Positions 43,563 through 60,628 of a stretch of DNA of 64,000 nt are shown in pieces. How positions within the stretch are numbered: position 1 is the first letter of the stretch; each line of letters begins with the position of its first letter. Source of the stretch: Catenulispora sp. EB89 (GTDB lineage Bacteria; Actinomycetota; Actinomycetes; Streptomycetales; Catenulisporaceae). The translations under genes and the position numbers were made by a program. The notes under the pieces are model-generated. The model did no database searches. It was not told the origin of the DNA and saw nothing but the letters and a program-made list of their open reading frames with translations. The stretch covers positions 62,001-126,000 of the forward strand of contig NZ_JBGCCU010000006.1 of the NCBI RefSeq assembly GCF_041261445.1, written 5' to 3'.

Positions 43563-44513
43563 GTGTCGGTGCCGAGAAATGTCGTCCATGCTGGTCGGGA
43601 TGGCTTCGCCTGTCTCTGCGAACCGGCGTGTGATCAGACGGTATTCGGTGCGGCTCCTGACCCGGGCGGCGATGATGGTTGGCGCCTCATTCACCACTAC
43701 AGCAACGCGATCTATGTACTGCCGGCAGCCGACGCGATCGTTCGCATCACCGTCGGGTCGGCGGATCTGGAGCAGGTCAGGCTCACCCAGACCGTGACCC
43801 GCTGGCTCGCACGGTCCTGCGGCTACCCCGCAACGGCACCGCTCGGAGCCGTAGAACCCGTGCCGTTGGCATCCGGATCCGTAGCCAGCTTCTGGGAATT
43901 CCACCAGCAGCCTGCCAAGCTGACCTACTCCTCCATCGATCTGGCCTCGCTACTGCGCCGACTGCACAAGATCGACGGTGACACCATCCCGGTTCCCCTT
44001 CCGCCCTGGGTCCCCCTGACCTCGTTGGAAGGAGCGCTCACCGAGTACATCCCCGAGACCGTGCTGACCGGCGATGAGATCGAGTGGCTCAAGCAGGAGA
44101 TCATCGAGGTGCGCGAACAACTCGCCAGCGTCGAGTGGCACCCGTCCCCGGGCCTTGTTCACGGAGACGCATGGGCAGGAAATCTGCTCGCGGACAGCCG
44201 CACCGGCGGCCTGCTGCTCGGCGACTGGGACTGGGTCAGCAACGGCCCCCGAGAGATAGATCTCGTGCCAACCTGGCACGCCGCACGAAGATATGGCCGC
44301 GACGATGCCTGGACGAGCGCGTTCGCACACGAATACGGGTACAACGTGGCCGACTCCCCCGGCTACGAAGCACTCATGCACATGCGCGACATGATGCAAC
44401 TCACTGGGCCGCTTCGCCGGGCCCGCACCGACCAGCGGTACTACACGTTCCTGCGACAGCGGGTCTCATCGATTCGCGCCGGCGACCGGGCTTCCCAGTG
44501 GTCCACACTCTGA
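43563..44513 (+). CDS. Aminoglycoside phosphotransferase (APH)-family kinase
   Basis: About 316 residues from the GTG at 43563; the first 30 or so residues are not protein-like, and the true start is unclear because no ATG lies in the early frame. Kinase motifs: the catalytic loop LVHGDAWAGNLLAD (HGDxxxxN) and the metal-binding LLGDWDWVSNGPREIDLVP (DxD). Family members phosphorylate small molecules such as aminoglycosides, choline or homoserine, and some act as self-resistance enzymes. Nothing here identifies a substrate. It stands alone between the lectin-like gene and a tRNA fragment. Confidence 0.78.
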   Translation: MSVPRNVVHAGRDGFACLCEPACDQTVFGAAPDPGGDDGWRLIHHYSNAIYVLPAADAIVRITVGSADLEQVRLTQTVTRWLARSCGYPATAPLGAVEPVPLASGSVASFWEFHQQPAKLTYSSIDLASLLRRLHKIDGDTIPVPLPPWVPLTSLEGALTEYIPETVLTGDEIEWLKQEIIEVREQLASVEWHPSPGLVHGDAWAGNLLADSRTGGLLLGDWDWVSNGPREIDLVPTWHAARRYGRDDAWTSAFAHEYGYNVADSPGYEALMHMRDMMQLTGPLRRARTDQRYYTFLRQRVSSIRAGDRASQWSTL

Positions 44514-44726
44514 ACAAATGGACCTGGGCACTCGGCGGGGACTTCGGGCTGGGAAAAGTCAGATTGCCTGCGTTCGGGAACCCGAACGGGTGACGTGACC
44601 CTGCCCGCCCGGAGCGCGAGCAATACGGCGGCACGGCGAAAAACAGGCCGCCACCATACGGAGTCGCTACGGCCGTCATCACACCGTCATCACACGGGGC
44701 CGTTTCGACGACTTTACGGGTCGAGT

Positions 44727-44746
44727 CGACTCGAGTACTCGAGTCG
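44727..44746. promoter_or_regulatory. 20-bp perfect palindrome
   Basis: Half-sites CGACTCGAGT and ACTCGAGTCG. It is flanked by TTTACG on the left and CGTAAA on the right, which extends the symmetry over about 45 bases. This is the shape of a dimeric regulator or recombinase site. It lies just beyond the tRNA fragment and its terminator. Confidence 0.4.
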
Positions 44747-44755
44747 GAGAAACGT

Positions 44756-44785
44756 AAAACCCCAGGTCAGCAGGGCTTCCTGGGG
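44756..44785 (-). terminator. Rho-independent terminator downstream of the tRNA fragment
   Basis: Read on the minus strand: CCCCAGG, 12-base loop, CCTGGGG, then TTTTACG. It lies 12-40 bases after the 3' end of the tRNA fragment, the usual place for a tRNA terminator. Confidence 0.75.
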
Positions 44786-44796
44786 TTCGACTTCGG

Positions 44797-44846
44797 TGCC
44801 CCCGGCAGGATTCGAACCTGCGACCATCGGATTAGAAGCGCCGATG
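44797..44846 (-). tRNA. 3' fragment of a tRNA-Arg (TCT)-like gene (not a complete tRNA)
   Basis: The minus strand shows an anticodon-loop region CTTCTAA (TCT), then a perfect T-arm with stem GCAGG/CCTGC and loop TTCGAAT, then acceptor strand CGGGGGC. No matching 5' acceptor strand GCCCCCG or D-arm is found upstream, so only the 3' part is present. Such pieces are left when an integrative element inserts into the 3' end of a tRNA gene. The fragment keeps a terminator downstream. Confidence 0.7.
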
Positions 44847-45148
44847 TTGTCAACCACGGTTCTGTCAAGCTAGGCCAATCCGGGATAGCCCATACCATTC
44901 TGTCCATGTTCGTCGAGCAGCCGATGTCATCGCGTGCCAGTTGAGGGTGATCTGGTTCGGAGCCAACCCTGGACCAACCCTGGACCACACCGTCTACCCG
45001 AAGCCGAATGTGTCACGGGTTTCGATCTTGAACCGCTCCGCCTTTGCTCCACGGACCACCGTTTGGGCAGCAGGTCACAACAGGCGTCTGACCTACTGCT
45101 CAAACGAGAAAGCATGGATTGACGTCGGAACGGTACACTCGAGGGCCC

Positions 45149-46165
45149 CTATCTGCTCCCCAGCTGCTTGGCGACAGCGGCTATCTCGGCCTCGAGCTCA
45201 GCCGTGGTCGCCGTCGTCGTAAAGCCAAGAGCGTGGTTGATGCGGATCATGTGGGCGTTATCGTGGGCCGTTTGAGTGAGAATGGCCGTGATCGCAGGGC
45301 GTTCGGCGCTCAACCAGCGCAGCATGGCGCCCTTGATGGCGAGACCAAGGCCATGACCTCGAAAGTCAACCGCGACGGCGGTATCCCCCTGGTAGGCCCA
45401 GTCGGGCTGGAGGGCGAACAGCTGGAGTTCGGTGATGCCGACTACCCGACCGCTCGATTCATGCACGGCCACGACGACGCGATTCTCGATATTCCGAGCC
45501 TCCAAGTCCGCTTCGTGCGCGCGGACCCGCTCGGGTGTCCATTTCGCGAACTCCATCGCCGAATCCCCGATCGGCGCGTCTAGAATGGCGGTACGGCCGC
45601 GCGCGTACTGCTCCAGTAGCTCTTCAGGGGCTCCACCAGTCCAGCGCTGGAGTCGGAATCCATCGGGTACAGGGCGTTGCCATAGACCCGGAGCGACTTC
45701 GGGGAGGGTGAGGATCTGGCGGACCCACGCGTGGGTCCGGGCGAAGGCCAATTTCCTTGCCCACAGGTCACCTGAGGCGTCGGCTTTGACGCCCTCCCCC
45801 ACCACGACGGTCCGGCCGTGGTCACGTAGGGCCGGGAGTATCGCGCGCAGCATCGCGGTGCCAATACCCTGACGCCGCCGTGTCGGCGTCACGATGACCC
45901 GCACAGTAGCAAGATGGCGATTTTCGAGTTCCGGGTAGACCGCGTAGGCACTGCCGATGATGTGGCCGTCCTCCCGCGCTACCCAACGGTCTCTTGGTTT
46001 CGACGCCGACTCATGTCGGCGCATCTGCGTGACGTACGCCTCGAGCGTCGGCAGGGATTGCTCGGGATAGTCCAGCCCCATGACGGCCTTCATCACCTCA
46101 TAATGCTCGGCGAAATCAGCCTCAGAAGCAGACAACGGATCAAACAGACTGACTTCCATCGACAT
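45149..46165 (-). CDS. Tandem GNAT acetyltransferase
   Basis: 338 residues with two GNAT folds. The N-terminal half has VIVTPTRRRQGIGTAMLRA (acetyl-CoA loop RRRQGIG); the C-terminal half has VAVDFRGHGLGLAIKGAML and ends with NHALGFTTTATTAELEAEI. It resembles the double-GNAT proteins of actinomycetes, whose substrates are mostly unknown. It overlaps the end of the SdpB-like gene by 26 bases (start MSMEVSLF at 46165), so it is the last gene of the Sdp-like operon. There it could acetylate the peptide, or give immunity to it; this is inference from position. Confidence 0.82.
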   Translation of the reverse strand: MSMEVSLFDPLSASEADFAEHYEVMKAVMGLDYPEQSLPTLEAYVTQMRRHESASKPRDRWVAREDGHIIGSAYAVYPELENRHLATVRVIVTPTRRRQGIGTAMLRAILPALRDHGRTVVVGEGVKADASGDLWARKLAFARTHAWVRQILTLPEVAPGLWQRPVPDGFRLQRWTGGAPEELLEQYARGRTAILDAPIGDSAMEFAKWTPERVRAHEADLEARNIENRVVVAVHESSGRVVGITELQLFALQPDWAYQGDTAVAVDFRGHGLGLAIKGAMLRWLSAERPAITAILTQTAHDNAHMIRINHALGFTTTATTAELEAEIAAVAKQLGSR

Positions 46166-47033
46166 GATGATCTTCCTTTCCTAAAGAGGTTTCGAGCGAC
46201 GCCAAGGTGACTACCGCGATCATGATGAGGGCGAAGCTGAACAATCCAATGAAAATCATGATAGCGAGATGAAAGGCTATAGCGACCACCAGCGCGTAGC
46301 GCCGATAGACGGTGGCGCAGAACATCGAAACACTGATGCCTAATTCGATGATCATCACCGACCAGGTGAGCACCTGCCCCACATAGCCGTGCTTCAAGAT
46401 CCAGACAATCGGAGAACGAACGAGATCTGGTGCGCCGTACTGAGGGTCTTGCATGATGATGCGCAACGCCCGCCCATTGCGCCACGCTGGATGCCGTGCT
46501 TTCGATAACGCGGCGTCCAGGTAAATAATGGCAACTTGCGCTCGAAGCACCAAGTGCGCGGCGTATGAGCTACCACGCCAGGTCGGCGCAAGTGGCTGGT
46601 CTGTGCGCCTCCAGTGGTTCGACCTGGAATCACCCATAGACTGCGGGATGATAAGGCCGCAAGCTATCACGGCGATAGCGGAGCCGCCATCAGTGGTCGC
46701 CAGGCGCGCAATCACGCTGAAGGCGATATACCAGTGAGGTATGCATAGCCACCGAGGCCTCAGCCCCAGGACCACCGCGGTGAGGATTGCCACCGCGACT
46801 ACCCTGGCCACGAGGTTCGCGCTCGGCTGCCCGCCACCTACACACCACAGGGAGATCCGGTCAACTCCCCCGCAGGGCCCAGGATCCCCAGGATGCGGCA
46901 CGGCGAAAAGCAGGTCACGATCCGGCGCGAACAGAATGAAACTGAGCTGAGCCATTGCAAGCAGCGAGCGGGCGACCGCAAGCGATTCACCTCGCGGGTC
47001 AAAGAAGGCGGCAGATTCAAGAAACCGCTTCAT
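46140..47033 (-). CDS. SdpB-like / HTTM-domain membrane protein
   Basis: 297 residues from the ATG at 47033, which overlaps the SdpA-like stop (ATGA). It has several hydrophobic helices (SLLAMAQLSFILFA, LVARVVAVAILTAVVLGL, ALVVAIAFHLAIMIFIGLF). It also has the family block QVAIIYLDAALSKARHPAWRNG, matching the SdpB/HTTM pattern in which a helix with Lys precedes W-x-x-G. In Bacillus subtilis SdpA and SdpB are both needed to mature the secreted SDP toxin from SdpC. An older frame reading upstream to 47219 is rejected because it runs back through sdpA. GC is lower than in the NRPS genes. Confidence 0.82.
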   Translation of the reverse strand: MKRFLESAAFFDPRGESLAVARSLLAMAQLSFILFAPDRDLLFAVPHPGDPGPCGGVDRISLWCVGGGQPSANLVARVVAVAILTAVVLGLRPRWLCIPHWYIAFSVIARLATTDGGSAIAVIACGLIIPQSMGDSRSNHWRRTDQPLAPTWRGSSYAAHLVLRAQVAIIYLDAALSKARHPAWRNGRALRIIMQDPQYGAPDLVRSPIVWILKHGYVGQVLTWSVMIIELGISVSMFCATVYRRYALVVAIAFHLAIMIFIGLFSFALIMIAVVTLASLETSLGKEDHHVDGSQSV

Positions 47034-47590
47034 GGCGAGCATATCAGATTGATCATCGCAACCTCCGAGGGACGCCTCGCCCCCGAATTCGTCTCCGGCC
47101 AGGTCAGCACAAACGCCACTAGCCCACACAAAGATGCCGGCTTTGTCTGGTTGACCAGCGACAGCGGCGCGGTAGACGAAAAACAACGAGCCGTTTCCGG
47201 ATCGGCACAAAGATACCACGATCCGGCTGGGATAATACTTTTGACATAATTAGCTTCGGCTGCGCGCGTCTGGGAACTGTCCGCCAGACCCCAAAGGTTG
47301 CGCGACGACATCTGTCGGGGAATTAACGGCGATGGTTCCTTCATGTCCGATCCGATCCCGAACACAGACAGGGTGGCGGAATCGGCATAGTTGTCAAAGA
47401 ATGACCAACCTTGTGGCCAGATTGCCCGATACGCCTGGCCAGTGCTACCTGTCCATGAAGGCTGAAGCTTAGTGACCAACTGAAGCCCCAGAGTTGAAGC
47501 AAGGGCAGTCACGAGGATAGCGAAGGTCACAGCAAACCCGAACGAACTGGCGGACTTTGAAGGCTCGCCAGCCGTTGGCGATGCTGCCAT
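47030..47590 (-). CDS. SdpA-like protein of an antimicrobial-peptide maturation system
   Basis: 186 residues from the ATG at 47590, eight bases after the stop of a 44-residue peptide gene. An N-terminal transmembrane helix (FGFAVTFAILVTALASTLGL) is followed by an extracytoplasmic domain with the SdpA hallmarks PQGWSFFDN, RNLWGLADSSQTRAAE and WYLCADPETARC (two Cys). SdpA family proteins act with SdpB to process and activate SdpC-type peptides outside the membrane. The frame is open upstream to 47791, but that part has no SD and covers the peptide gene in another frame, so the shorter start is preferred. Confidence 0.8.
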   Translation of the reverse strand: MAASPTAGEPSKSASSFGFAVTFAILVTALASTLGLQLVTKLQPSWTGSTGQAYRAIWPQGWSFFDNYADSATLSVFGIGSDMKEPSPLIPRQMSSRNLWGLADSSQTRAAEANYVKSIIPAGSWYLCADPETARCFSSTAPLSLVNQTKPASLCGLVAFVLTWPETNSGARRPSEVAMINLICSP

Positions 47591-47598
47591 GTCCGAAA

Positions 47599-47733
47599 TC
47601 AACCCCAGCTGATGGGACTCGCATCCATGCCATCTGGATGGACAACGAGCGCCTGCGGACCTGTCCCCATCGCAGCGACTGCTGACAGCGCGACAACTGT
47701 AGCGATCACCGCAAAAATGATCTTGCGTCTCAA
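47599..47733 (-). CDS. 44-residue secreted peptide, candidate SdpC-like toxin precursor
   Basis: TTG start at 47733 with SD AGAGGGA seven bases upstream; stop at 47599. N-terminus (M)RRKIIFAVIATVVALSAV is a positive charge cluster plus hydrophobic core, with AAMGTG a plausible signal-peptidase region. The remainder is short and acidic: GPQALVVHPDGMDASPISWG. It has no Cys, so it differs from Bacillus SDP, which has a disulfide. It is the first gene of the operon and lies eight bases before sdpA, so it is the best candidate substrate of SdpA/SdpB. It could instead be a leader that controls sdpA translation. No family is recognised. Confidence 0.55.
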   Translation of the reverse strand: MRRKIIFAVIATVVALSAVAAMGTGPQALVVHPDGMDASPISWG

Positions 47734-47903
47734 AACTCAATCCCTCTCGCGCGGTCGTTCGACTACCATTGGTGCCCACTTCGGTGGACACAGTGAGCTT
47801 GGGGGGCGGCGCTACCTTACGGCTACCGAGTTGCTACTCGTCTCGCGTGGCCGCGAACACTGTAACGGACGCCGGGCCGGACACAAGGATTGGATCATCG
47901 GTT

Positions 47904-50900
47904 GTGACAGGGGACGACCACGACGCAGGGCAGCACGGCTTGCGTCCCCACGGACCAGTTAGCCTCGCGATACGGGTACTCGGCCCATTGCTAGTCGAAA
48001 TCGACGGCCAACCCGCCGCGGTCGGCGGGGGCCGGTCCGCAAGAGCGCTGGCGTTGTTGACCATCAACGCGAACAGGGTTGTACCGGTAGAGCAAGTGGT
48101 CGACGTGCTGTGGGAAGTTCCGCCCGAGTCGGCGCGTCAGCAGGTGCACAATGTCGTCGCAGGCCTCCGAAGGACGTTGAGGCCAGCGGCTGGAACAGCA
48201 GACATCTTGACGGTCGATGCCGGCTACAAACTGAGCCTACCGAAGGATACTGTTGACGTTCTCCAGTTCGAGGCACTGCTGCTTGCCGCCGAGAGTGCGG
48301 TCGCATCAGGGGACCCCACTGGAGCATGTCAGCATCTCTGGCAAGCGCTCGCTTTCTGGCGCGGGCAAGCGCTGAGCGGGTTCGACGCTCCGAGTCTCCT
48401 AAGTACAGCCACCCTGCTGGCTGAGAAACGAGCAAGCGCTGTCGAGCAGCTGTCGACGATCAGTATTGAACTGGACGAAGCTGCTTCGGTCGTCGGAGTT
48501 TTGACCGAGTTGGTAGCCGAATTCCCTCTCCGGGAGTCACTTCGGGCCATCCTTGTGCGAGCGTTGTACCGCAGCGGTAGGCAAGCGGACGCACTCGCCG
48601 TCTACGAAGATGGCCGGCGCCGGTTGGCAGACGAGCTCGGATTGGACCCTGGGCCTCAGTTGCGGGAGGCGCATAGGCAGGTCCTTGCGAGCGGCAGTGT
48701 GGCAGATCCGTCAGCTGGTTCCACATCGCTGCCCGTGAAAGCCGAAGCCGCCAGGACGCCCGAGCCACTGGGAGGAAATTTCCTTCCGCGAGACCTTGCG
48801 GAGTTCACCGGGCGTGAGGCGGAGATCCATCACCTAATTGCCAAGGCCGCCAACTCGGATACCGCGGCGCTCGTGATCTCAGCCATCGATGGTATGGGCG
48901 GCGTTGGCAAGACGACGCTGGCGGTCCATCTCGCGCATCGGCTGGCTGATCAGTATCCGGACGGCCAGTTCTTCGTGGACTTGCAAGGTTTCACCGTCGG
49001 AAGTGAACCGCTGTCTCCGATGCACGCCCTAAACACGCTACTCCGGTGCAGCGGCGTTCCTCCCGAGGCAATCCCTCAGGATCTCGCGGCGCGTAGCGCT
49101 ATATGGCGCAGCGCCTTAACAGGGCGGCGAGTGCTTGTATTGTTGGACAACGCCTCTGATGTGACGCAGGTGCGCCCCCTGCTCCCTGCCGAACCCGGCA
49201 CTCTTGTGCTGATAGCCAGTCGACGTCGAATGACGGCTTTGGAGGGTGCGGTACCGCTTTCTCTCGATGTGATGCCTGAAAGCGATGCTTATGATCTCTT
49301 CAGCCACATCGCTGGTGCTGATCGTGCTGCTGCTGAGCCGGAAGAAGTCAAGCTCGTTCTGGACCTGTGCGGGAGGTTGCCACTAGCCATCCAGATTGCC
49401 GCTGCACGGCTACGCGATCGCCCGAGCTGGTCTGTGGCAGATCTGGTTGGCCAACTGCAACGACGAGATGGCCGGGCCAGGACGCTCGTTGCCGGCGACC
49501 GAAACGTGATGGCCATTATCGGTTGGTCGTACCAGCACCTTTCCGAGTCGCAGAAGGTTCTCTTCCGTCGACTGAGCGCACATCCCGGATACGACTTCGA
49601 CGCGTACACCGCCGCGGCCCTCTCGGGGCTTTCGTTGGAACAGGCCGAGGATGGTCTAGAAGACCTCATCGATGTCAATCTCCTGCAACAACGGCGCTCC
49701 GGACGCTACAGCTTCCACGACCTAGTCCGAGACTGCGCGCAAGACTTGCACACCCGCGATGATGGGGATGACGAGCGGCAGTCCACGCTTCGCAGGCTCC
49801 TTGACTACTACCTCGTATCGACTGACGATTGGTGCCGGACCGTGGGAGCCGGGAATCCATATAACACGTTCGAACCTCACGAGGAGCCAAACCACCCACG
49901 AAGGGCCCCGAACCGCGATGCGGCACTTTCGCTGCTCGAGGACGAGTACCGCAACATCGCAGCTACCGTCAGAGATGCCGCAGTACGTGGGTTCGATTCT
50001 CATGTGTGGCAGCTTGTCTGCATAATGCAGCCCTACTTCTTTCGGCTCAACCAATGGAGTGAAGCGGAAGAGCTCTTCACAATGGCCTTGACTTCGGCGC
50101 GACATTTGAGCCTTGACAAAGCGGAATCGGCATGCCTCGTAGGCCTGGCCTCTATGAGGCGTGCTCGCGGTGCCGCCTCCGAGGCGCGTGAGCTCACATC
50201 CCGTGCGATCGAGATCAGCCGGGCAAGTGGAAACCTACTGGCGGAAGCGTACCAGCTGACAAACCTTGGCGGCATACTTTTGGACGAGAGTAACTTCAAT
50301 GAAAGCCGAGCATGTTTCCTCAGCGCCCTGGATCTCGCGACCCAGGCCGGTGATCTTCACCTCCAAGCAAGCCTCACCAATAACCTCGGCGTAACGAGCC
50401 GCGGCCTTGGTCGATTCGCAGAGGCTCTCGATTACTTCAACCATGCATACGAGCTCAAGATCGATGACGACACCGTGCGCCGGCACATCGTCTGCAATAT
50501 CGCCGAAATACTCAACCTCCAAGGTCAAACGAGTGCTGCTCACAGGCGGTACAGAGAGGCACTGGAACTTAGCGGTCTTATTAACTCGCCCCGGGGGAGA
50601 GCGGAGGCTCTGGTTGGACTGTCCGCCGTGTATCGGGCCTCAAACGACCAGGACCGGGCTCTCGAAGCTGGCCGCGAAGCAGTCGACCTGGCTCGCTCAG
50701 TCGGCTGGCTTCAGCTTGAGAGTGAGGCGCTAAACGTCATCGGTGACACACACCTCAGCCTCGGCGACGTAGAATCGGCTGAACGTTCGTTTGTCCAGGT
50801 CGAGTCCATAGGTTTGTCTTTCGGATCCGAGCGATACGTGGCGCAGGCTCATGAGGGTATGGCACATGCAGCACTCGCCCGCCTCGAAATCGCCCAAGCC

Positions 50901-51044
50901 AAAGACCATTGGCGCGAAGCGCTGGCCATTCACCCTGGCGGAGTCATCGATGCTGCAGCTGCGCGGCGCCACCTAGAAGCAGAAGACCCGAGTTCCGAGC
51001 CTTGTTGGCGATGCAGGCTGGACCAGAATACTGGTCAAGAGTAA
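47904..51044 (+). CDS. AfsR/SARP-type transcriptional regulator (SARP - NB-ARC - TPR)
   Basis: About 1,046 residues from the GTG at 47904; the frame is open to a TTG at 47769, but the first 60 residues there match nothing. An OmpR-like winged-helix (IRVLGPLLVEIDGQPAAVGGGRS...) is followed by the BTAD domain (DVLQFEALLLAAESAVASGD to DELGLDPGPQLREAHRQVL), which together make a SARP. Then comes an NB-ARC ATPase with Walker A GMGGVGKTTLA, RVLVLLDNASDV and GRLPLAIQIAA. The last 350 residues are TPR helices (QLTNLGGILLDESNFNES, LQASLTNNLGVTSRGLG). AfsR-like proteins activate secondary-metabolite operons through heptameric repeats near -35. It is divergent from the Sdp-like operon and convergent with the amidinotransferase operon, so either, or cluster 1, may be its target. 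Confidence 0.9.
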   Translation: MTGDDHDAGQHGLRPHGPVSLAIRVLGPLLVEIDGQPAAVGGGRSARALALLTINANRVVPVEQVVDVLWEVPPESARQQVHNVVAGLRRTLRPAAGTADILTVDAGYKLSLPKDTVDVLQFEALLLAAESAVASGDPTGACQHLWQALAFWRGQALSGFDAPSLLSTATLLAEKRASAVEQLSTISIELDEAASVVGVLTELVAEFPLRESLRAILVRALYRSGRQADALAVYEDGRRRLADELGLDPGPQLREAHRQVLASGSVADPSAGSTSLPVKAEAARTPEPLGGNFLPRDLAEFTGREAEIHHLIAKAANSDTAALVISAIDGMGGVGKTTLAVHLAHRLADQYPDGQFFVDLQGFTVGSEPLSPMHALNTLLRCSGVPPEAIPQDLAARSAIWRSALTGRRVLVLLDNASDVTQVRPLLPAEPGTLVLIASRRRMTALEGAVPLSLDVMPESDAYDLFSHIAGADRAAAEPEEVKLVLDLCGRLPLAIQIAAARLRDRPSWSVADLVGQLQRRDGRARTLVAGDRNVMAIIGWSYQHLSESQKVLFRRLSAHPGYDFDAYTAAALSGLSLEQAEDGLEDLIDVNLLQQRRSGRYSFHDLVRDCAQDLHTRDDGDDERQSTLRRLLDYYLVSTDDWCRTVGAGNPYNTFEPHEEPNHPRRAPNRDAALSLLEDEYRNIAATVRDAAVRGFDSHVWQLVCIMQPYFFRLNQWSEAEELFTMALTSARHLSLDKAESACLVGLASMRRARGAASEARELTSRAIEISRASGNLLAEAYQLTNLGGILLDESNFNESRACFLSALDLATQAGDLHLQASLTNNLGVTSRGLGRFAEALDYFNHAYELKIDDDTVRRHIVCNIAEILNLQGQTSAAHRRYREALELSGLINSPRGRAEALVGLSAVYRASNDQDRALEAGREAVDLARSVGWLQLESEALNVIGDTHLSLGDVESAERSFVQVESIGLSFGSERYVAQAHEGMAHAALARLEIAQAKDHWREALAIHPGGVIDAAAARRHLEAEDPSSEPCWRCRLDQNTGQE

Positions 51045-51163
51045 AAGGTGACGCTTCAGGTCATCCGTGCCGCAAGCTCCATTTCCATGTCTCGAATCGA
51101 CAGCATTGCAGTTCGATGACACGGGTTTATCAGAAAACACCTCCACGGTTACTCGCCTCGACT

Positions 51164-52351
51164 TCACCTCCCATCAACGATACCGACAGATCCGTCGAAG
51201 TAGTCTTCGCATCCTCCGGTACGGCGCACGTCCCACGTCGCGCAGTGTAGAGAACCTCCAAATTCGTAGACGCTGCGGAAAGGGATCACTAGTACGTTGA
51301 ATCCGAGCGCTTCGAGCAGCCTCTGCAGATTCTTCTCAGATTCCTCACAGATGACAGTCTCCGGTGCCACACTCAGTACGTTCATAGAAAGCCATCGAGA
51401 AGACTGACAGTATTTCGGCATCTGGTCGTTCGTGCTACTGGCCTCGGGGGCGTCGACGAATTGCCAACCATGATCCGAAAAGTACTCCGCCTCGTTCTCC
51501 TTAATGGGCCTATCCGGATTTGTCAGGACCAAGCCAGGACGCAGGGGTACGAACGTGCAATCTATATGCGACGGAAAGAGGTCCAAGGGAAAGTGAACAG
51601 CATGCACCCGAAAACCTCGCGGCTCGAGCTCGCGCCGAAGCCAGCGGATACCAGCCCGATTAGTCGTCATCGACTCCTGGACGAAAATGTCGCGACCCAT
51701 TCTTGTGATGTCGGCCGCATCGAACACCACTTCGTCTTGCGTCACGCAGAACTCGAAATCGTGCATGCGGGCGTAACGCTCGTCCACATCCAGCTCCCAG
51801 AACTCCTTCCGATACATATGGTCGGCCATGGAGGGCTTGGGAGCCGCCGTCCAGATCATCTCGGAATCCCGGTCCCAGTATTCTCGGACGATAGAGCGGT
51901 ACGGAAGATATTCGAAGAAACGCGCACGCCGGGACATCGTGGCCTCGATCACCTGGTTTCCAACGGTGATCAAAACGTCTCGCGGACACACGGAACAGTA
52001 TTGACTGTCGACGGTGAATTCCGGAGAGGACAAGGACCGGTCGAATTCGATCGGGTCGGGGCGCCGCACGACCACACCCTGCGACTCCAGCAGTGCCGTC
52101 AAACCATCGAGCTCCTCATTCGCGCGCTTGATCACATCGGCCGGCTTCGGTCCCGTTGGAAAGACCTCGCCCGGTTGTGTAAGGCCGCGCAGAATAGGCC
52201 GATACCCGGGTTCGGCCGGGTCGTAGCATGCACCATCTGCTCGCCCTACCACGATTTCTTCCAGCGGATCCCATTCGTTCCAGGCATTCACTACGCTGGA
52301 GGACACGGCGGCGGCGGACTCGTCGATACTGGCCGAAGTGGGAAAAATCAT
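51164..52351 (-). CDS. Amidinotransferase (arginine:glycine amidinotransferase / StrB-like)
   Basis: 395 residues from the ATG at 52351, which has GAGGAG seven to nine bases upstream. Family motifs: VVNAWNEWDPLEEIVVGRADG at the N-terminus, FDAADITRMGRDIFVQ (Asp), FPSHIDCTFVPL (catalytic His) and GGSLHCATWDVRR with the nucleophile Cys370. The enzyme moves the amidino group of arginine to a primary amine via an amidino-Cys intermediate, giving a guanidine. Known acceptors include glycine (GATM, CyrA) and inosamine phosphate (StrB). It is the last gene of the cluster 2 operon, so the product probably carries a guanidine. The acceptor cannot be read from the sequence. Confidence 0.92.
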   Translation of the reverse strand: MIFPTSASIDESAAAVSSSVVNAWNEWDPLEEIVVGRADGACYDPAEPGYRPILRGLTQPGEVFPTGPKPADVIKRANEELDGLTALLESQGVVVRRPDPIEFDRSLSSPEFTVDSQYCSVCPRDVLITVGNQVIEATMSRRARFFEYLPYRSIVREYWDRDSEMIWTAAPKPSMADHMYRKEFWELDVDERYARMHDFEFCVTQDEVVFDAADITRMGRDIFVQESMTTNRAGIRWLRRELEPRGFRVHAVHFPLDLFPSHIDCTFVPLRPGLVLTNPDRPIKENEAEYFSDHGWQFVDAPEASSTNDQMPKYCQSSRWLSMNVLSVAPETVICEESEKNLQRLLEALGFNVLVIPFRSVYEFGGSLHCATWDVRRTGGCEDYFDGSVGIVDGR

Positions 52352-52482
52352 TGCGGAACTCCTCATCGTAACGATGTTACTTTGCGGTAGTCGAAGAACC
52401 ATCCGCCCGCCTCGATCCACTCGCTCAGAATGGCAGGTGGATCACGTACTGCACGTTCTGCACTTTATTCGCTGGTTGCCAC

Positions 52483-53823
52483 TTACGGCGACTTGATCAG
52501 AGCCTTGGCCTCCGTAAGAAATCCGACGAGACTACCATCGTGAGGCAAGCCGGGATGGACAGCCCATGGGTCTGCGGGCCCAATCACCACGCGACGGATT
52601 GTCGGCTCCCTCACGACTTCCTCCGCGAGATCCGGAGCACCGATGACAGTCAAGGCGAGTGAGTTCCTCAACTGAGCCGCGCCAAGCGCCCGGTCCCAGG
52701 ACGCGACGAGAGCGAACGGAAACGGGAGTTCGGTTCCGATAGCCGGATGATGCGGATCATCAGTCGCCAAGACGATAGGCCGCACCACCACAGATCCATC
52801 GTCCAGTTCGACAATGTCATCCGTAACGCCACCAATTCTGCGGAGACTGCTCGATGTCATCGCATTAACGACACGGATCAGAGCTTCAGCCTGGCCACGC
52901 TTGAAGGTGGGAAGTACACACCGGGTATCAGTCGCCGTGTACAGCGGAGCCTTATCGAACTCCATCGCAATCAGCGAAGCGATTTCAAACGGATCATCGA
53001 TGGTCAAGACTGCAGACGTATTGGTGCAAAGAACTCCACCATCGTGGGCAATGGCACGACAGGTAAAATCAAGGGCTTGTTGGTCAATCGTTTGAGCCAG
53101 CAGCGTCTTACTTCGTCCCGGTCCGCGCAGAGCCACCGAGGGCGCAGCCGACCAGCGAGCCATACTGTCCGGACCGCCGTACGCAAGCGCAAGATCTGCG
53201 TGGCTGATCAGAAAATCCGCACTCGCGTAACTTCCTGGAAGGACTGAGAGCCGGCCGGCCGGAAGGCCCGCTTCGAAGAGGGCACTGGCCAGACGAAAAG
53301 GAGTGAACGGATCGCGTGACCCCGGACGTATGACCACGCTGTAGCCGAGGGCTAATGCATGCAGCCAAGCCAGATGCGGGCCTGGGTGGTTGCTCGGCGC
53401 CACAACACCGAACGTCCTGCCCCGCGGCATGTGCCTGACCTCGAAGTCACCCGACAGGGGAGCCGGCAACTCGGCGAGCACCGCCGACGGTACTTCCGCC
53501 ACCCCGGTACCAAGCGTTTGAAGCGCTCGAGCGTAGGCCGAGTACGGTACCCCCGTAGCCAGTGCAGCAGCCTGACAGTAGTCACGGGGCGACAGACCGG
53601 CCACCGTCCCAACGGCGTACAACTCGGCAGCTCGGCCGAATAGCGCCGATTCCGGAGGCGTTCCCGCCTCCTCCGCGGCCCTCCGTAGGGCGACATTGAC
53701 CAAAAGGGGCGGAGCGATGCCGACCAGAGCCAGAACGGACCCGTCGACCCCGGTCAGTTCCACGCGATCGGCGGATCGCCACGTGTCGCCGCAGACGATC
53801 GGCTGAAATTCATACGCGACCAT
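52483..53823 (-). CDS. LuxC-like acyl reductase (aldehyde-forming, ALDH fold)
   Basis: 446 residues of the aldehyde-dehydrogenase/LuxC superfamily. The region RTFGVVAPSNHPGPHLAWLHALALGYSV is the LuxC-type nucleotide-binding entry (novel N-P-G-P block), and the probable nucleophile Cys lies in AHDGGVLCTNTSAVL. LuxC-type enzymes take an activated acyl group onto the Cys and reduce it with NADPH to an aldehyde. The start ATG at 53823 follows the stop of the LuxE-like gene by one base, so the two proteins are made together and probably form a carboxylic-acid reductase, like the bacterial luminescence pair or GriC/GriD, which reduces an aminohydroxybenzoate in grixazone biosynthesis. The likely acid is the anthranilate-type product of the neighbouring TrpE/TrpG genes. 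Confidence 0.8.
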   Translation of the reverse strand: MVAYEFQPIVCGDTWRSADRVELTGVDGSVLALVGIAPPLLVNVALRRAAEEAGTPPESALFGRAAELYAVGTVAGLSPRDYCQAAALATGVPYSAYARALQTLGTGVAEVPSAVLAELPAPLSGDFEVRHMPRGRTFGVVAPSNHPGPHLAWLHALALGYSVVIRPGSRDPFTPFRLASALFEAGLPAGRLSVLPGSYASADFLISHADLALAYGGPDSMARWSAAPSVALRGPGRSKTLLAQTIDQQALDFTCRAIAHDGGVLCTNTSAVLTIDDPFEIASLIAMEFDKAPLYTATDTRCVLPTFKRGQAEALIRVVNAMTSSSLRRIGGVTDDIVELDDGSVVVRPIVLATDDPHHPAIGTELPFPFALVASWDRALGAAQLRNSLALTVIGAPDLAEEVVREPTIRRVVIGPADPWAVHPGLPHDGSLVGFLTEAKALIKSP

Positions 53824-53824
53824 C

Positions 53825-54904
53825 TCAGTACACGCCTTCGACGACTTGTTGCCCGTCCGTCAAAAGCGGCTGGACGTCGGCCACATCGTCCCCGAACCCG
53901 CCATCAGGCGTGCCGACCCTGATTGCGGAGTCCCGTTCAAGCACGTTGGGCAAGAACATATCCCTCGTCAACAAGTGGACCAGAACTCTGCCCCTTTCAC
54001 CGACCGCCGAGCGCTCTCCAGTGTCGGGATTCACCACCTCGACCAATGCTTGGGGCTGCGGCGTGCGGAACACGCAAGGAAACCGGTCTCGCTCAGTCCT
54101 CGGAACCTGGGGCGCGATACCCATCATGCTGTTCCCATACAGGCCGACCACTGGAATATCTGGAAAGTATTCCTCCTCCAGCAGCTGACGTGTCATGGGG
54201 CTGATACTCGTGCCACTCCAAATGACGCCGCCGAGGCCCGATGCGAGGCGGTCGTACAGCGAAGCCCTGGCGCACAGCGCCTCCAACATCGGAGGAGTCG
54301 CGAAGATCACACCGATGCGCTGGCTGGTCACGATGAGGTCGGCCTGGTCAAGGACATGTTGGACGTACTCGTCAGCCAGAGCTCTGCGCCCGTCGGCGAT
54401 CAGCCGCTTGACCCACCGGGGATCGAAATCCACGGTGAAGCATGTCCCGCCGCGGACTTCGGCCAGACGCCGCATCGATCTGCCGACGATGTGAGGCCCC
54501 GTGGGGCCGATGTGCAACCAATGTCCGCCCACGGGGACACCGTGGTCCGTGAGCACGGAATCCACCCAGCCGAGCGCGTCGAAGCGGGAGCTGTGCTCGA
54601 CGATGCGTTTGGGCGCGCCCGACGTACCACCGGACTCATAGACCGAGAAGGGTTCGCCGACGATTCCTGCCGGGATCAGATCGTCCACCGCGATGTTCCT
54701 GAGCTCGTCACTCAAGTCGGGAAAGCGGCGCAGATCGTCGGGCTCGCGGATATCCGTCAGCGGGTCGAAGTCCCATCGGGTCGCCGCACGGAGCCAGAAC
54801 GGCGACCCCGTATCGGCACCGAAATGCCACTGCAAGATATCGCGAAGGTGGGCTGTGGGATCGCCACCCGCGGCGACGGACGCGTCCATGCCATCGCTGC
54901 TCAC
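53825..54904 (-). CDS. LuxE / phenylacetate-CoA-ligase-like adenylating enzyme
   Basis: 359 residues from a GTG at 54904 that overlaps the TrpG-like stop (GTGA). The ATP-binding loop is YESGGTSGAPKRI (SGGTSGxPK), followed by WLHIGPTGPHIVGRSM, GVIFATPPMLEAL, GVIWSGTSIS and VVGLYGNSMMG. This is the short LuxE/coenzyme-F390-synthetase-type of adenylating enzyme, which activates an aryl or acyl carboxylate as the adenylate for transfer. It probably passes the acyl group to the LuxC-like protein encoded next. An aromatic acid such as anthranilate is a reasonable substrate given the operon, but this is inference. Confidence 0.8.
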   Translation of the reverse strand: MSSDGMDASVAAGGDPTAHLRDILQWHFGADTGSPFWLRAATRWDFDPLTDIREPDDLRRFPDLSDELRNIAVDDLIPAGIVGEPFSVYESGGTSGAPKRIVEHSSRFDALGWVDSVLTDHGVPVGGHWLHIGPTGPHIVGRSMRRLAEVRGGTCFTVDFDPRWVKRLIADGRRALADEYVQHVLDQADLIVTSQRIGVIFATPPMLEALCARASLYDRLASGLGGVIWSGTSISPMTRQLLEEEYFPDIPVVGLYGNSMMGIAPQVPRTERDRFPCVFRTPQPQALVEVVNPDTGERSAVGERGRVLVHLLTRDMFLPNVLERDSAIRVGTPDGGFGDDVADVQPLLTDGQQVVEGVY

Positions 54905-55506
54905 AGCTCGACCAACTCCTCCGAAAGTGGTGAGAAACAACCCGCTACGCTTAGCACGTTCTTCATCATCTGTTGGCCGTGGTCGGTGAAATGCGATTCG
55001 GGATGGAACTGCACGCTCTCCACCGGCATCTCTCGATGGCGCAATCCCATGACCTCTCCCTCGGGAGACCAGGCCGTCACCTCCAACGCGTCAGGTAACG
55101 TGTCGGGATCGACGACAAGCGAGTGGTAGCGCGTGACGGTGAGCCTCGACGGCAGTCCTTCGAAGACTCCGCGTCCGTCGTGTTCGATGACAGAGCACTT
55201 CCCGTGCATGGGCACTGCGGCGTGACGTACCTTGGCGCCGAAGGCCTGGCCTATGGTCTGGTGGCCTAGACAGACCCCAAATATCGGGATCAGGCCGGAC
55301 AGGTCATGGACCGCGTTGAGCGACGCCCCTGCGGTATCCGGGTTTCCAGGCCCCGGCGAAATCAGCAGCAGAGCCGGCTTCAGACGCTCCAACTCCCGAG
55401 TTGTTACGGCGTCGTTCCGGAAGACAAGGCACTCGACGCCAAGAGCTCGGACGTACTGGACCAGGTTGTAGACGAACGAGTCATAGTTGTCGATGACGCA
55501 TATCAC
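54901..55506 (-). CDS. TrpG/PabA-like glutamine amidotransferase subunit
   Basis: 201 residues from a GTG at 55506 overlapping the TrpE-like stop; this start gives the normal N-terminus ICVIDNYDSFVYNLVQYV, whereas the open frame to 55569 lies inside trpE. Class I glutamine amidotransferase triad: Cys in GVCLGHQTIGQAFG, His and Glu in VQFHPESHF. PGPGNPDTAGAS is the family oxyanion region. It hydrolyses glutamine and channels ammonia to the TrpE-like partner. A second TrpEG pair in a secondary-metabolite operon normally supplies anthranilate or an amino-chorismate intermediate independently of tryptophan feedback. Confidence 0.92.
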   Translation of the reverse strand: MICVIDNYDSFVYNLVQYVRALGVECLVFRNDAVTTRELERLKPALLLISPGPGNPDTAGASLNAVHDLSGLIPIFGVCLGHQTIGQAFGAKVRHAAVPMHGKCSVIEHDGRGVFEGLPSRLTVTRYHSLVVDPDTLPDALEVTAWSPEGEVMGLRHREMPVESVQFHPESHFTDHGQQMMKNVLSVAGCFSPLSEELVEL

Positions 55507-56918
55507 CGAAGTTTGCCTCCAAGGTCGAGCCGGACCGCACGGGCCGGTGCGGCCAGCTTGGCGAAACACTCGTCTCGCTCATGCTTCGCGTCGGAGTCGT
55601 AGACGATGCCCCCGCCCGCCTGGATCCTTATACGCCCGCCGGTCAACACAACGCTCCGTATCACGAGAACGAGATCGACGCCCTCCGGGCCAAAGCTGCC
55701 GACTGCTCCGGAGTAGAGGCCACGTCCTCGTGGTTCGAGCTCGTCGATGACCTCGATGGCACGCAGTTTCGGGGCCCCTGTCATCGTCCCCGCCGGAAAC
55801 GTCGCCTGGATCAGGTCCGCGACTGTGCGGTCGGCGGCCAGCCGACCGGTGACCTCCGAGGTCAGATGCATGACGTGGGAGAACCGCTCCACCCCGAGCA
55901 GCCGAGGCACGGTCACCGTGCCCGGGTCACATACGCGGCCCAGATCATTGCGGGCCAGATCGACCAACATCCGATGCTCGGCGAGTTCCTTGTGCGAACC
56001 GAGAAGATCCCGTTCAGCGCGCAGATCGTCTTGTCGCCGCGCCCCACGAGGCCGGGTGCCAGCAAGGGGCCGGACCAGTGCAAGACCGTCGGCGAGTTCC
56101 ACGCATGGCTCGGGTGAGCAGCCCGCCACCTCGAATGCTCCGGCGCTGTACCAGAACTGATACGGCGACGGGTTGAATCGGCTCAGCTCCCGATACACGG
56201 CCAGACCGTCCGCGTCCGATTCCGCGGTGACCCCGACGGACAAGACCACTTGGAAGACGTCCCCGTCGACGATGTGCTGCTTTGCGGCAGTGACCGCGTC
56301 GGCGTAATCAGCAGCCCCGAAGGTGAACACACCGGGAGAAGTACTGGGCTCGGCGAAGACAGCCGGCCTGGATCCGACAATCGCCTCGACGACGTGATCG
56401 CACACTCGCGCGGCAGTCGGTGGGGTGGTACCACGCCCCACCACCCGCACACTCTCCGGTTCGAAGCTGACGATGGCTTCAGGAAGGAAGAAGTCGTAGA
56501 CGGGCAGATCCTGATCCTTCTCCGGTCCGAGCCGTTCGAAGTCGCGGATCGCGTCGAACCCGAGTACGCCGAACCAGCGGCGCTCTTCAGGAAGCACAGC
56601 GTCCCGCAGCTGGAGGTCGTCCAGGAAGGCGATAGCTTGCTGCAGGATTGTCGGTGTGGCGATCCCGCCCGCGGAATCGGCGCGCACACCGGTACTGACG
56701 ACAGCCAGCTCGCCCACGGCCAGTACGACACGCGCTACCGGGTCCCGTTCGGCCCTGAGCAGCATAGTTCTTCGTCCGCCGCGCAGCGCCGCCGCGACCG
56801 ACACCGGGTCCAAGGCACCGGGCAGCACGATCTCATGGCGCCATACAGGCTCGCCGGAGACGGCTACCACCGCCTCGACAGACGCGAGCCGGTCTCCGAT
56901 ATCGGCGAGCGTGCTCAC
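55503..56918 (-). CDS. TrpE/PabB-like chorismate-utilising synthase subunit
   Basis: 471 residues from a GTG at 56918 overlapping the previous stop (GTGA). Chorismate-binding fold motifs: YFQVVLS-like DGDVFQVVLSVGV, NPSPYQFWYSAG, CSPEPCVELADG, RPLAGTRPRG, HRMLVDLARNDLGRV, FPAGTMTGAPKLRAIEVIDELE and GGGIVYDSDAKHERDE. The block TGAPKLRAIEVIDELEPRGRG is closer to anthranilate synthase than to PabB. The N-terminal part is short compared with housekeeping TrpE, and I could not find the LLES feedback motif, as expected for a pathway-dedicated enzyme. With TrpG it should give anthranilate or 2-amino-2-deoxyisochorismate from chorismate. Confidence 0.9.
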   Translation of the reverse strand: MSTLADIGDRLASVEAVVAVSGEPVWRHEIVLPGALDPVSVAAALRGGRRTMLLRAERDPVARVVLAVGELAVVSTGVRADSAGGIATPTILQQAIAFLDDLQLRDAVLPEERRWFGVLGFDAIRDFERLGPEKDQDLPVYDFFLPEAIVSFEPESVRVVGRGTTPPTAARVCDHVVEAIVGSRPAVFAEPSTSPGVFTFGAADYADAVTAAKQHIVDGDVFQVVLSVGVTAESDADGLAVYRELSRFNPSPYQFWYSAGAFEVAGCSPEPCVELADGLALVRPLAGTRPRGARRQDDLRAERDLLGSHKELAEHRMLVDLARNDLGRVCDPGTVTVPRLLGVERFSHVMHLTSEVTGRLAADRTVADLIQATFPAGTMTGAPKLRAIEVIDELEPRGRGLYSGAVGSFGPEGVDLVLVIRSVVLTGGRIRIQAGGGIVYDSDAKHERDECFAKLAAPARAVRLDLGGKLR

Positions 56919-57592
56919 CGGGCCTCGTCGGTCTCGATGGCCACCACCCGGGCCGGCGCCGCCTCGACACCCGCGACCTTGATCGGCAGCGCGATCAGCT
57001 CGACGACGTCGCGACTCAACTCATGCATGTTCGTGAGGTATTCGAGAAGTGGAATGCCCGCAGAGAGCAGCATGTGGTGCACGGGTGACTGCCGGTCACC
57101 CGGAAGCTCGGTGAGGCAGTCGAAACCGACAAGCACCGCTTGGTTATCGACCGCCCACTTCGCAGCGGACGGCGTCAGATACGGTGGCACATCCCAGTAG
57201 TCACTGCGCCCCCAGGCCCTGCGAACGTAGTCAGTGCGGATCAGGAGCCGATCTCCGGGATGCCAAATGTCGGCGAGTACGGCATCGAGGTCCTCGCCGG
57301 TGACCGGTTCCAGATCCTTCTTGTATGAGAGGTCTGCGACGCACGCCCGCCCGACGAGAGTCTCCAGTGGAACCGCGTCGATTCCCTCAGCTCCCGGAAA
57401 GAAATGCAGGCGATACTCCATGTGGGTCGCGTTGTGCGGAAAGAGATGAAGAACGCTGAAGGTGCGCTGCGTCCCATTCGGATCGGACGTCGGGGTCATA
57501 GTGGACTCCGTCGCAAAAGCAGGGAACCAGTCTGCGGGATATGCAGGCATCCCGTCGTAGAATCCGTGTGTGAGATCGACGATACGTGTCAT
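56915..57592 (-). CDS. Kynurenine-formamidase / cyclase family protein
   Basis: 225 residues. It begins MTRIVDLTHGFYDGMPAYPADW, the classic start of the cyclase/arylformamidase family (PF04199 type). The metal motif is HNATHMEYRLHFF where bacterial KynB has HxGTHxDxPxH; the His residues are kept but Asp is Glu. GFDCLTELPG and HHMLLSAGIPLLEYLTN are further family blocks. Members hydrolyse N-formylkynurenine or close rings by dehydration. Next to a formyltransferase and TrpEG, two roles are possible: removing a formyl group late in the pathway, or a cyclisation on an anthranilate-like ring. It lies 18 bases after the NRPS and overlaps trpE. Confidence 0.8.
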   Translation of the reverse strand: MTRIVDLTHGFYDGMPAYPADWFPAFATESTMTPTSDPNGTQRTFSVLHLFPHNATHMEYRLHFFPGAEGIDAVPLETLVGRACVADLSYKKDLEPVTGEDLDAVLADIWHPGDRLLIRTDYVRRAWGRSDYWDVPPYLTPSAAKWAVDNQAVLVGFDCLTELPGDRQSPVHHMLLSAGIPLLEYLTNMHELSRDVVELIALPIKVAGVEAAPARVVAIETDEAR

Positions 57593-57610
57593 GTCGTTTG
57601 CACCCTTTGT

Positions 57611-60600: not shown

Positions 60601-60628
60601 CCCACAGGCTCACAGTGCCGTCATCCAT
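57611..60628 (-). CDS. NRPS, A - T - C
   Basis: 1,005 residues from the ATG at 60628. Adenylation domain (about 1-495): FVPVDPAHPDA, YVIHTSGSTGVPKGI, SPSFDVSIWEAW, NGYGPAETTIASSL, YRTGDLVRRLPDG, RNGKTDYAAL. The carrier has GFIEVGGTSLGAIQ. Condensation domain (about 580-1005) with intact HHLVIDG (WHHLVIDGWS), GCLVNTVLVP and FTMDQAATLD. By-eye specificity residues D-V-W-I-L-G-G-I-A-K do not match a code I know. It begins with A and ends with C, so the carrier is an initiating one. The preceding gene, 13 bases upstream, encodes a formyltransferase plus half C domain, as if a formylating loading module had been split into two proteins. The C domain would join the formylated aminoacyl group to an acceptor on another protein. 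Confidence 0.92.
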   Translation of the reverse strand: MDDGTVSLWAAAMATAELYPERLAVLAPDGEATYGELLGCAYALAARFVAEGVGPRDRVGVAVAPGRTAIAAAMAAMMCGAAFVPVDPAHPDAFIQSLLQASSASIAVSAPGRASLGLPTITADEVEPLFGAGVRDVFPALNRDVAYVIHTSGSTGVPKGIAVSHRSALNVIAEIDRIAPSPKYANGSWWASPSFDVSIWEAWAPLQRGGAVVVVPDHARLDAEELVGFLDAQGAASMLIMPGLLPSVRDALVNTDLGKGFRCLLTGGEPVRLGVCQDILAARPELVVLNGYGPAETTIASSLYRVPAVGGDRNGRTPIGLAVAGNRIHLVDSSGAPTTNEVGELLVAGINVARGYLNGQAGGFTTEPGGTGEPAYRTGDLVRRLPDGNLLFESRVDNQLKVRGHRVEPGEVEAALHRVGRFHEVVVASRNGNRDLVAYVVPRPGTDVDPDDTILNVRKLLPAYAVPSMIVRIGAVPQTRNGKTDYAALAALAVDKGDREPNPVADPLLQAVLDCFFEYAQGTGGSPDSGFIEVGGTSLGAIQAAADLRRRLGKRVSAADILRAPSAHALARLLADATEATSAGPLTGTMRGPLTPAQLAMWLHEQVTQDDLRYVEVVAFDFPTGLDTLRLVGAIRTAAARHLAFGARIVEESSGPHWSLGERMVAVGCPERAVIAGSAEHAVRIAEAFGAFDLSTGPLMRAEVIRCGPDSGTVVFSWHHLVIDGWSLRRFLAEVGRCYRDDTYEPASEPRTVCDLAALSAAAQADPGFAARVSARADRIRGSGPIRFAWPGSVSAEVEPDRGLCILFHLTGLENEALLARARQFDVTIHTIYLSAFQDSVQRVTGLRDFNVAIAVSERDVWGAGDVAGCLVNTVLVPAADPDLSTANYVRSVGTAVKTALADVDIPFSAVMRELLRGIKPRPSNVPQLYFTMDQAATLDLGSIEGRPRYITQRSPKFEMTFRLDVGATDVHGELAFQPTAVPPGVAQAVVDEFVAAVARLCLSH

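Follow-up and report, generated by a model that had tools for sequence, protein, structure and literature searches.

In the actinobacterium Catenulispora sp. EB89, a gene for a secreted-type peptide of 44 amino acids (aa) lies directly before the genes sdpA and sdpB. The locus is part of a 64,000-nucleotide stretch of contig NZ_JBGCCU010000006.1 (positions 62,001 to 126,000), hereafter the window, in which the peptide gene, sdpA, sdpB and a gene for a tandem GNAT acetyltransferase form a four-gene run on the minus strand. With a probability of roughly 70%, this run is a secreted-peptide operon that is controlled by a regulator of the SARP type and in which SdpA and SdpB act on a client with no relation to SdpC. 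Production of the SDP toxin in Bacillus subtilis depends on SdpA and SdpB; this toxin is a 42-residue, hydrophobic segment of SdpC and acts by collapsing the proton motive force (PMC6818787). The EB89 locus has in common with the SdpABC/YitPOM systems of B. subtilis that SdpA and SdpB homologues stand beside a secreted precursor. However, the Bacillus client is a 203-aa protein with an internal toxin (PMC6818787), whereas the clients described here have 43–68 aa and a mostly polar tail. The client gene also precedes sdpA, a SARP gene adjoins, and SdpC was not found. Weak sdpABC homologues have been reported in Brevibacterium (PMC5719810). In the literature searched on actinobacterial SdpA and SdpB, SdpAB-like systems and HTTM proteins, which covers subscription journals thinly, short SdpAB clients are unreported.

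A small conserved gene in the place of sdpC

It is very probable that the small frame is a genuine gene. A sequence-only reading of this DNA had described it as an unannotated frame, and re-reading the sequence bore out its coordinates, the TTG start with a Shine–Dalgarno sequence (GAGAGGG) upstream, the 8 bases between the peptide stop and the sdpA ATG (47590), the ATGA shared by sdpA and sdpB, and the overlap of the GNAT frame with the end of sdpB (26 bases, if the first GNAT start is used). Frames of 40–70 aa with a charged start, a hydrophobic stretch and a Shine–Dalgarno sequence arise in 0.14% of 2200 dinucleotide shuffles, versus 21 of 22 peptide regions, these being regions in which a peptide had been seen beforehand; the single miss (L077) has no Shine–Dalgarno sequence by this test. 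The EB89 region alone yields such a frame in 0.25% of 2000 shuffles, and apart from the peptides only six occur in 448 strand-kb of these loci. In all nine related peptide pairs, the nonsynonymous rate (dN) is below the synonymous rate (dS), from 0.02/0.075 to 0.47/1.12. A chance frame was rejected on these ratios and on the low background rate. The relative in G012 has an ATG at the position aligned with the EB89 TTG start, and the hydrophobic stretch is uniform across 22 peptides (best 15-residue mean Kyte–Doolittle value 2.15–3.03). A scan of the same number of peptides (22 of 32) against NCBIfam and Pfam gave no convincing match, the best hits, to models for TAT signals and DUF2613 (E about 0.01), being judged to reflect composition, and a known peptide family was rejected on this basis.

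The tiny gene is kept across several families of soil actinobacteria. A peptide of 43–68 aa stands before sdpA in 32 of 34 distinct sdpAB loci of the EB89 kind, EB89 included (short-type loci), and the peptide-bearing loci span four actinobacterial families. Of the 14 genomes in the EB89 family, five encode a full-length relative of SdpB (at least 171 bits; four above the cut-off), and in all five sdpA is preceded by a short frame that carries a signal-like sequence. A scan of one genome per species in 84,980 species returned 24 named loci, three of them already known from the EB89 family; it favors this branch because its two short patterns were drawn from short-type SdpBs. A SARP homologue is the most constant partner, lying close upstream on the opposite strand in 22 of the 24 named loci; the small frame is present in 20 of these 22.

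The fixed rule applied to new loci asked for a frame of 40–70 aa upstream of sdpA with a charged start and a hydrophobic stretch. It found a peptide in 10 of 10 new short-type loci and in none of 23 sdpC-type loci (19 + 4). The G724 family (297 genomes) contributed 21 SdpB places: a known Planobispora locus and one new short-type locus, both with the peptide, and 19 others, all without it. The new locus has its SARP gene downstream and not divergent; a long frame is seen in 15 of the 19 sdpC-type loci, and six of the 19 lie in genomes that had already been covered. The family holding Lentzea jiangxiensis (390 genomes) contributed 35 SdpB places, of which 30 were examined. Short-type loci (at least 256 bits) account for 26 of these, namely 16 with an already known peptide, one repeat of the peptide-less locus L084 (L124, the same place on contig 17, base 200730, counted once) and nine new ones, every one of which has both the peptide and a SARP match. 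The other four, without peptide and without SARP match, were typed as sdpC-type without an SdpC test. In L082 (Lentzea fradiae) and in L125 of the same family, stop codons interrupt sdpB while peptide and SARP are kept; these are possibly decaying copies or sequence errors.

The peptide gene occupies the position that belongs to SdpC elsewhere. In the sdpC-type loci, the gene before sdpA encodes SdpC in 10 of 10 tested cases (TIGR04032, E 4.3e-11 or better; three above the cut-off), and 27 further loci have a long frame in its place. These actinobacterial sdpC-sdpA-sdpB loci (TIGR04032–TIGR04034, for example in Streptomyces) resemble the EB89 locus in the order of client gene, sdpA and sdpB, in the invariant SdpA cysteines and in SdpB Lys178 and His255; they differ in the client and in an SdpB that falls outside the short-type clade. 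The expected conservation of the small frame in front of other sdpAB pairs thus holds for the short type and not for sdpAB genes generally. In an SdpB tree of 62 rows, a single branch (support 100/99) separates the 24 short-type rows from the 38 others. The label 'short' stands for a SARP neighbor plus place in the tree, and two of its rows (L084 and L089) have no peptide; the label 'sdpC' covers 10 loci with SdpC by hidden Markov model, 27 with a long frame by our own rule only, and L057 with neither. Three loci were kept out of the tree: L069 and L070 as duplicates, and L041 because a contig end cuts its SdpB. One SdpB clade fits a single switch of client, the direction of which can only be inferred because the root is not placed.

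A long SdpC elsewhere in the genome, which would have spoken against a short client, was searched for in EB89 and in three named relatives. The best match in EB89 (14.6 bits, E 0.15) is far below the cut-off of 99.2, none was found in the relatives, and SdpC elsewhere in the EB89 genome was rejected. A single SdpA match was obtained in the whole EB89 genome, which comprises 11.9 Mb in 70 contigs. With the peptide in 32 of 34 short-type loci and no SdpC found, a short secreted-type peptide is likely to be the client of this SdpAB pair, as the sequence-only reading had proposed.

SdpA, SdpB and the peptide tails

Both proteins are homologues of the Bacillus pair, as had been noted from the sequence. 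SdpB exceeds the TIGR04033 cut-off (187.8 bits versus 178.4) and matches the HTTM family (PF05090, 33.1 bits, cut-off 27.7); SdpA exceeds PF17418 (46.8 bits, cut-off 25) and misses the stricter TIGR04034 (30.8 versus 53.1). In a plasmid collection, eight SdpB records were found, all annotated as SdpB family and all below 60% identity. Four SdpA cysteines are invariant in 58 of 58 aligned SdpAs, and the only match of SdpA among solved structures has E 3.7. Residues 159–276 of SdpB match chains of the vitamin K-dependent carboxylase GGCX, a member of the HTTM superfamily, among solved structures. Counted along the printed alignment, Lys178, Trp184 and His255 of SdpB correspond to Lys218, Trp223 and His287 of the carboxylase, and all three are invariant in 62 of 62 aligned SdpBs of both types. 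All 24 short-type rows have Cys97 and Trp101, which occur in only 4 and 12, respectively, of the 38 others. In the carboxylase, Lys218 is the base that deprotonates the hydroquinone, its change to alanine abolishes catalysis, and Trp223 is part of the hydroquinone pocket (PMC12589487). By this alignment, SdpB keeps the predicted equivalent of the catalytic base as Lys178. The reaction must differ from that of the carboxylase because the EB89 peptide has no glutamate. GGCX also differs in size (~758 aa), and the 297 aa of SdpB leave no room for a luminal propeptide-binding domain. Linaridin clusters with HTTM proteins (e.g., corynaridin crdG) likewise combine a small precursor with an HTTM protein of unclear mechanism (PMC9927463) and show by precedent that HTTM proteins can accompany small precursors; the EB89 locus differs in having SdpA, a signal-like precursor N-terminus and no recognized linaridin gene.

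The precursors consist of a leader, charged and then hydrophobic, and a tail of 22–44 residues, the border being set at the end of the most hydrophobic 15-residue segment and not at a predicted cleavage site. Since the peptide alignment has no invariant or nearly invariant column, no sharp cleavage motif can be recognized. In 16 of the 32 tails, two cysteines stand at or near the C-terminus (e.g., ...GPCTTGC or ...GPICEPHC). The other 16 have fewer than two; 11 of these show an N-x-V-V-like stretch (a loose pattern), and some a late G/S-M-x-A. The EB89 tail, which reads ...QALVVHPDGMDASPISWG, is indeed free of cysteines, as first described, a property that does not extend to the half of the peptides with a cysteine pair. 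At ~4760–4881 of the Actinosynnema locus L083, the tail NTVVRTAFYDSMKA is followed by a near-copy, NTVVRTAFYDSVKA, in another frame, as if the tail had been duplicated in tandem.

The tandem GNAT had been suggested to modify the peptide. Its best NCBIfam match, mycothiol synthase MshD, is far below the cut-off (43.8 versus 163.1). It is no general part of the system, being present in 13 of 32 peptide loci and absent from 19, and acetylation of lysine in the EB89 tail is impossible because the peptide has no lysine after residue 4. The GNAT occurs in 0 of 16 two-cysteine loci versus 13 of 16 loci with fewer cysteines (Fisher p 3e-6, kinship ignored). With relatedness counted, this split cannot reach significance because the tree has only three to four changes, and it was not accepted as proof of function. 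A more specific proposal, which we regard as tentative, is that SdpBs are quinone-dependent, peptide-modifying cousins of the carboxylase and that the SARP branch makes small ribosomal peptides of a new class, with two tail families, one with a cysteine pair in the C-terminal region and no GNAT, the other NxVV-like and usually with GNAT.

The SARP regulator, its promoter and the neighborhood

The promoter of the peptide operon contains the direct repeats GTAGCAA-4-GTAGCCG-4-GTAGCGC, followed after 7 nucleotides by CAAGCT (Table 1). The letters of CAAGCT are identical in the G012 relative, and the same GTAGC triple is found in relatives. SARP sites are described as direct repeats at 11-bp pitch, the last one 8 bp from the -10 element (PMC10936776), and the layout described for SARPs matches that of the EB89 promoter (PMC10936776, PMC5930380). 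Across 22 loci, triple repeats are in excess at 11-bp pitch only (72, versus 53–59 at nine other pitches); 60 shuffles of these loci gave a mean of 54 and a maximum of 62. The GTAGC form itself reaches a score of at least 15 in 6 of 24 loci versus 0 of 1440 background stretches, for a consensus chosen after the EB89 copy had been seen. The three repeats are thus a probable SARP operator of the peptide operon. The SARP frame has 1091 aa from its first possible start, and the true start may be nearer 47900.

TABLE 1. Coordinates in the window of the peptide operon, the divergent regulator gene and the promoter elements.
Feature	Position	Strand	Description
Short peptide gene	47599..47733	-	TTG start; encodes a 44-aa precursor with a positively charged N-terminus, a hydrophobic stretch and a short tail (from the list of open reading frames)
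sdpA	47030..47590	-	Hydrophobic N-terminal stretch (anchor, judged by eye) and domain with four cysteines
sdpB	46140..47033	-	HTTM-family membrane protein
Tandem GNAT acetyltransferase, two domains	45149..46165	-	PF00583 in two stretches; optional member of the cassette
Divergent AfsR-type SARP regulator (BTAD, NB-ARC, TPR)	47769..51044	+	PF03704 139 bits, NB-ARC, TPR
Three direct GTAGC repeats, 11-bp pitch	47809..47837	-	Probable SARP operator of the peptide operon
-10-like hexamer CAAGCT	47796..47801	-	Read from the sequence; 7 nucleotides past the last repeat

In the proposed mechanism, the AfsR-type SARP would bind the three GTAGC repeats and activate transcription of the peptide gene, sdpA, sdpB and the GNAT gene. 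The 44-aa precursor would enter the membrane via its signal-like N-terminus, where SdpA, anchored and with its four conserved cysteines probably outside the membrane, may present or cleave it. SdpB, with the catalytic lysine kept, would carry out the membrane step, either a modification or a coupled cleavage. The peptide set free would have roughly 20–25 residues and may act as an antibacterial or as a signal.

Several observations weigh against this picture. Two loci, L084 (Kutzneria buriramensis) and L089 (Kitasatospora), have SARP and sdpAB genes and no recognizable peptide frame. Only 6 of 24 loci have a clear GTAGC operator, or 8 if two weaker examples are included. Nor are SARPs exclusive to the short-type branch: two SARP-like matches (E 1.8e-32 and 6.6e-25) lie upstream in the sdpC-type locus L093 of Streptomyces somaliensis, and a partial SARP match lies near the sdpC-type locus L057. 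Further SARPs beyond sdpC would be missed because the other sdpC-type flanks mostly comprise 1.5 kb only. The carboxylase match is limited to residues 159–276 of SdpB at E 6.4e-5, and gamma-carboxylation of glutamate is excluded for the EB89 client, which has no glutamate. Finally, the small frame could encode an uncleaved membrane peptide that serves SdpAB and is not processed by it.

Besides sdpAB and the regulator, no family occurs in more than 7 of the 24 named loci (GNAT in 7, the next in 6). A neighbor family seen in six of them (L076 7447–9612, minus strand, and relatives) is often convergent just after sdpB or the GNAT gene. Beside the EB89 SARP gene, at 51164–60628 on the minus strand, the translations as read by eye include amidinotransferase-like, LuxC/LuxE-like, anthranilate-synthase-like and non-ribosomal-peptide-synthetase-like frames, which look like a secondary-metabolite cluster; the SARP could serve both neighbors, the peptide operon and this cluster. 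An Rfam scan of 44500–51500 and tRNA scans gave no lead. The 43 bases at 44796–44838 of the window duplicate the 3' part of tRNA-Arg(TCT) with 100% identity to the intact gene, which lies at C6:186772–186845, ~80 kb away on the same contig and in the same orientation. Two tyrosine-recombinase-like frames, recognized by eye, adjoin the intact gene, and the cassette may sit just within one end of an integrated element of 80 kb.

Possible roles of the peptide

If the peptide is a client of SdpAB, a pheromone is one possible but doubtful role: the SdpAB-matured peptide would report cell density and feed back on the SARP. The regulator is the only near-constant neighbor besides sdpAB, and it carries TPR repeats, a fold able to bind peptides. 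However, no importer or sensor was identified, and the GNAT was the only recurring neighbor family to be named.

The sequence-only reading had called the locus a toxin operon, a function that is unproven. That the client is an SDP-like toxin that damages the membranes of neighboring cells, with immunity provided by the GNAT or an unseen gene, appears unlikely, and slightly less probable than a pheromone. It is favored by the need for SdpA and SdpB in making SDP in Bacillus and by the fact that the toxin part of YitPOM can differ entirely (PMC6818787). However, the best 25-residue segments of the SdpC toxin regions reach 1.3–2.25 in 9 of 9 cases, whereas the best 15-residue segments (a different length) of the tails stay at or below 1.03 in 30 of 32; only L085 (1.43) and L075 (1.33) overlap the lowest SdpC values. 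The EB89 tail reaches 0.45, and the EB89 client lacks the strongly hydrophobic toxin segment that follows the signal sequence in SdpABC. The mean Kyte–Doolittle value over the 32 tails is -0.21 (range -1.38 to 0.67; EB89, 0.18), and 24 of the tails are net negative. This composition argues against an SDP-like membrane toxin, and a GNAT-based immunity is at odds with the 19 peptide loci that have no GNAT.

Outside the client reading, the small gene might encode a membrane microprotein, i.e., a subunit, chaperone or regulator of SdpAB, with the true client elsewhere in the genome. The uniformity of the hydrophobic stretch and the lack of a sharp cleavage motif would suit such a protein. Conversely, the gene occupies the sdpC place of the sister loci and is missing from the 23 scanned sdpC-type loci, the tails have diverged into different motif types whereas the leaders have stayed alike in character, as in clients, and no SdpC was found in EB89 or the three relatives. 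We therefore consider a microprotein improbable and prefer the SdpAB client. Least probable by far is a translational leader or attenuator of sdpA with a functionless product: the frame ends 8 bases before sdpA, which makes translational coupling likely, but dN is below dS in all nine pairs, the signal-like sequence is kept across families and the tails share residues.

To our knowledge, the chemistry of the SdpA and SdpB step in the making of SDP is open. With a natural client of ~44 residues, the problem would come down to two proteins and one small precursor, and the alignment of an SdpB lysine with the carboxylase's catalytic base offers a concrete chemical hypothesis for SdpB. The cassette also exposes, in antibiotic-producing actinobacteria, a peptide family without a model in the libraries to which 22 of the 32 peptides were compared, and this family adjoins a type of regulator that usually controls antibiotic production.

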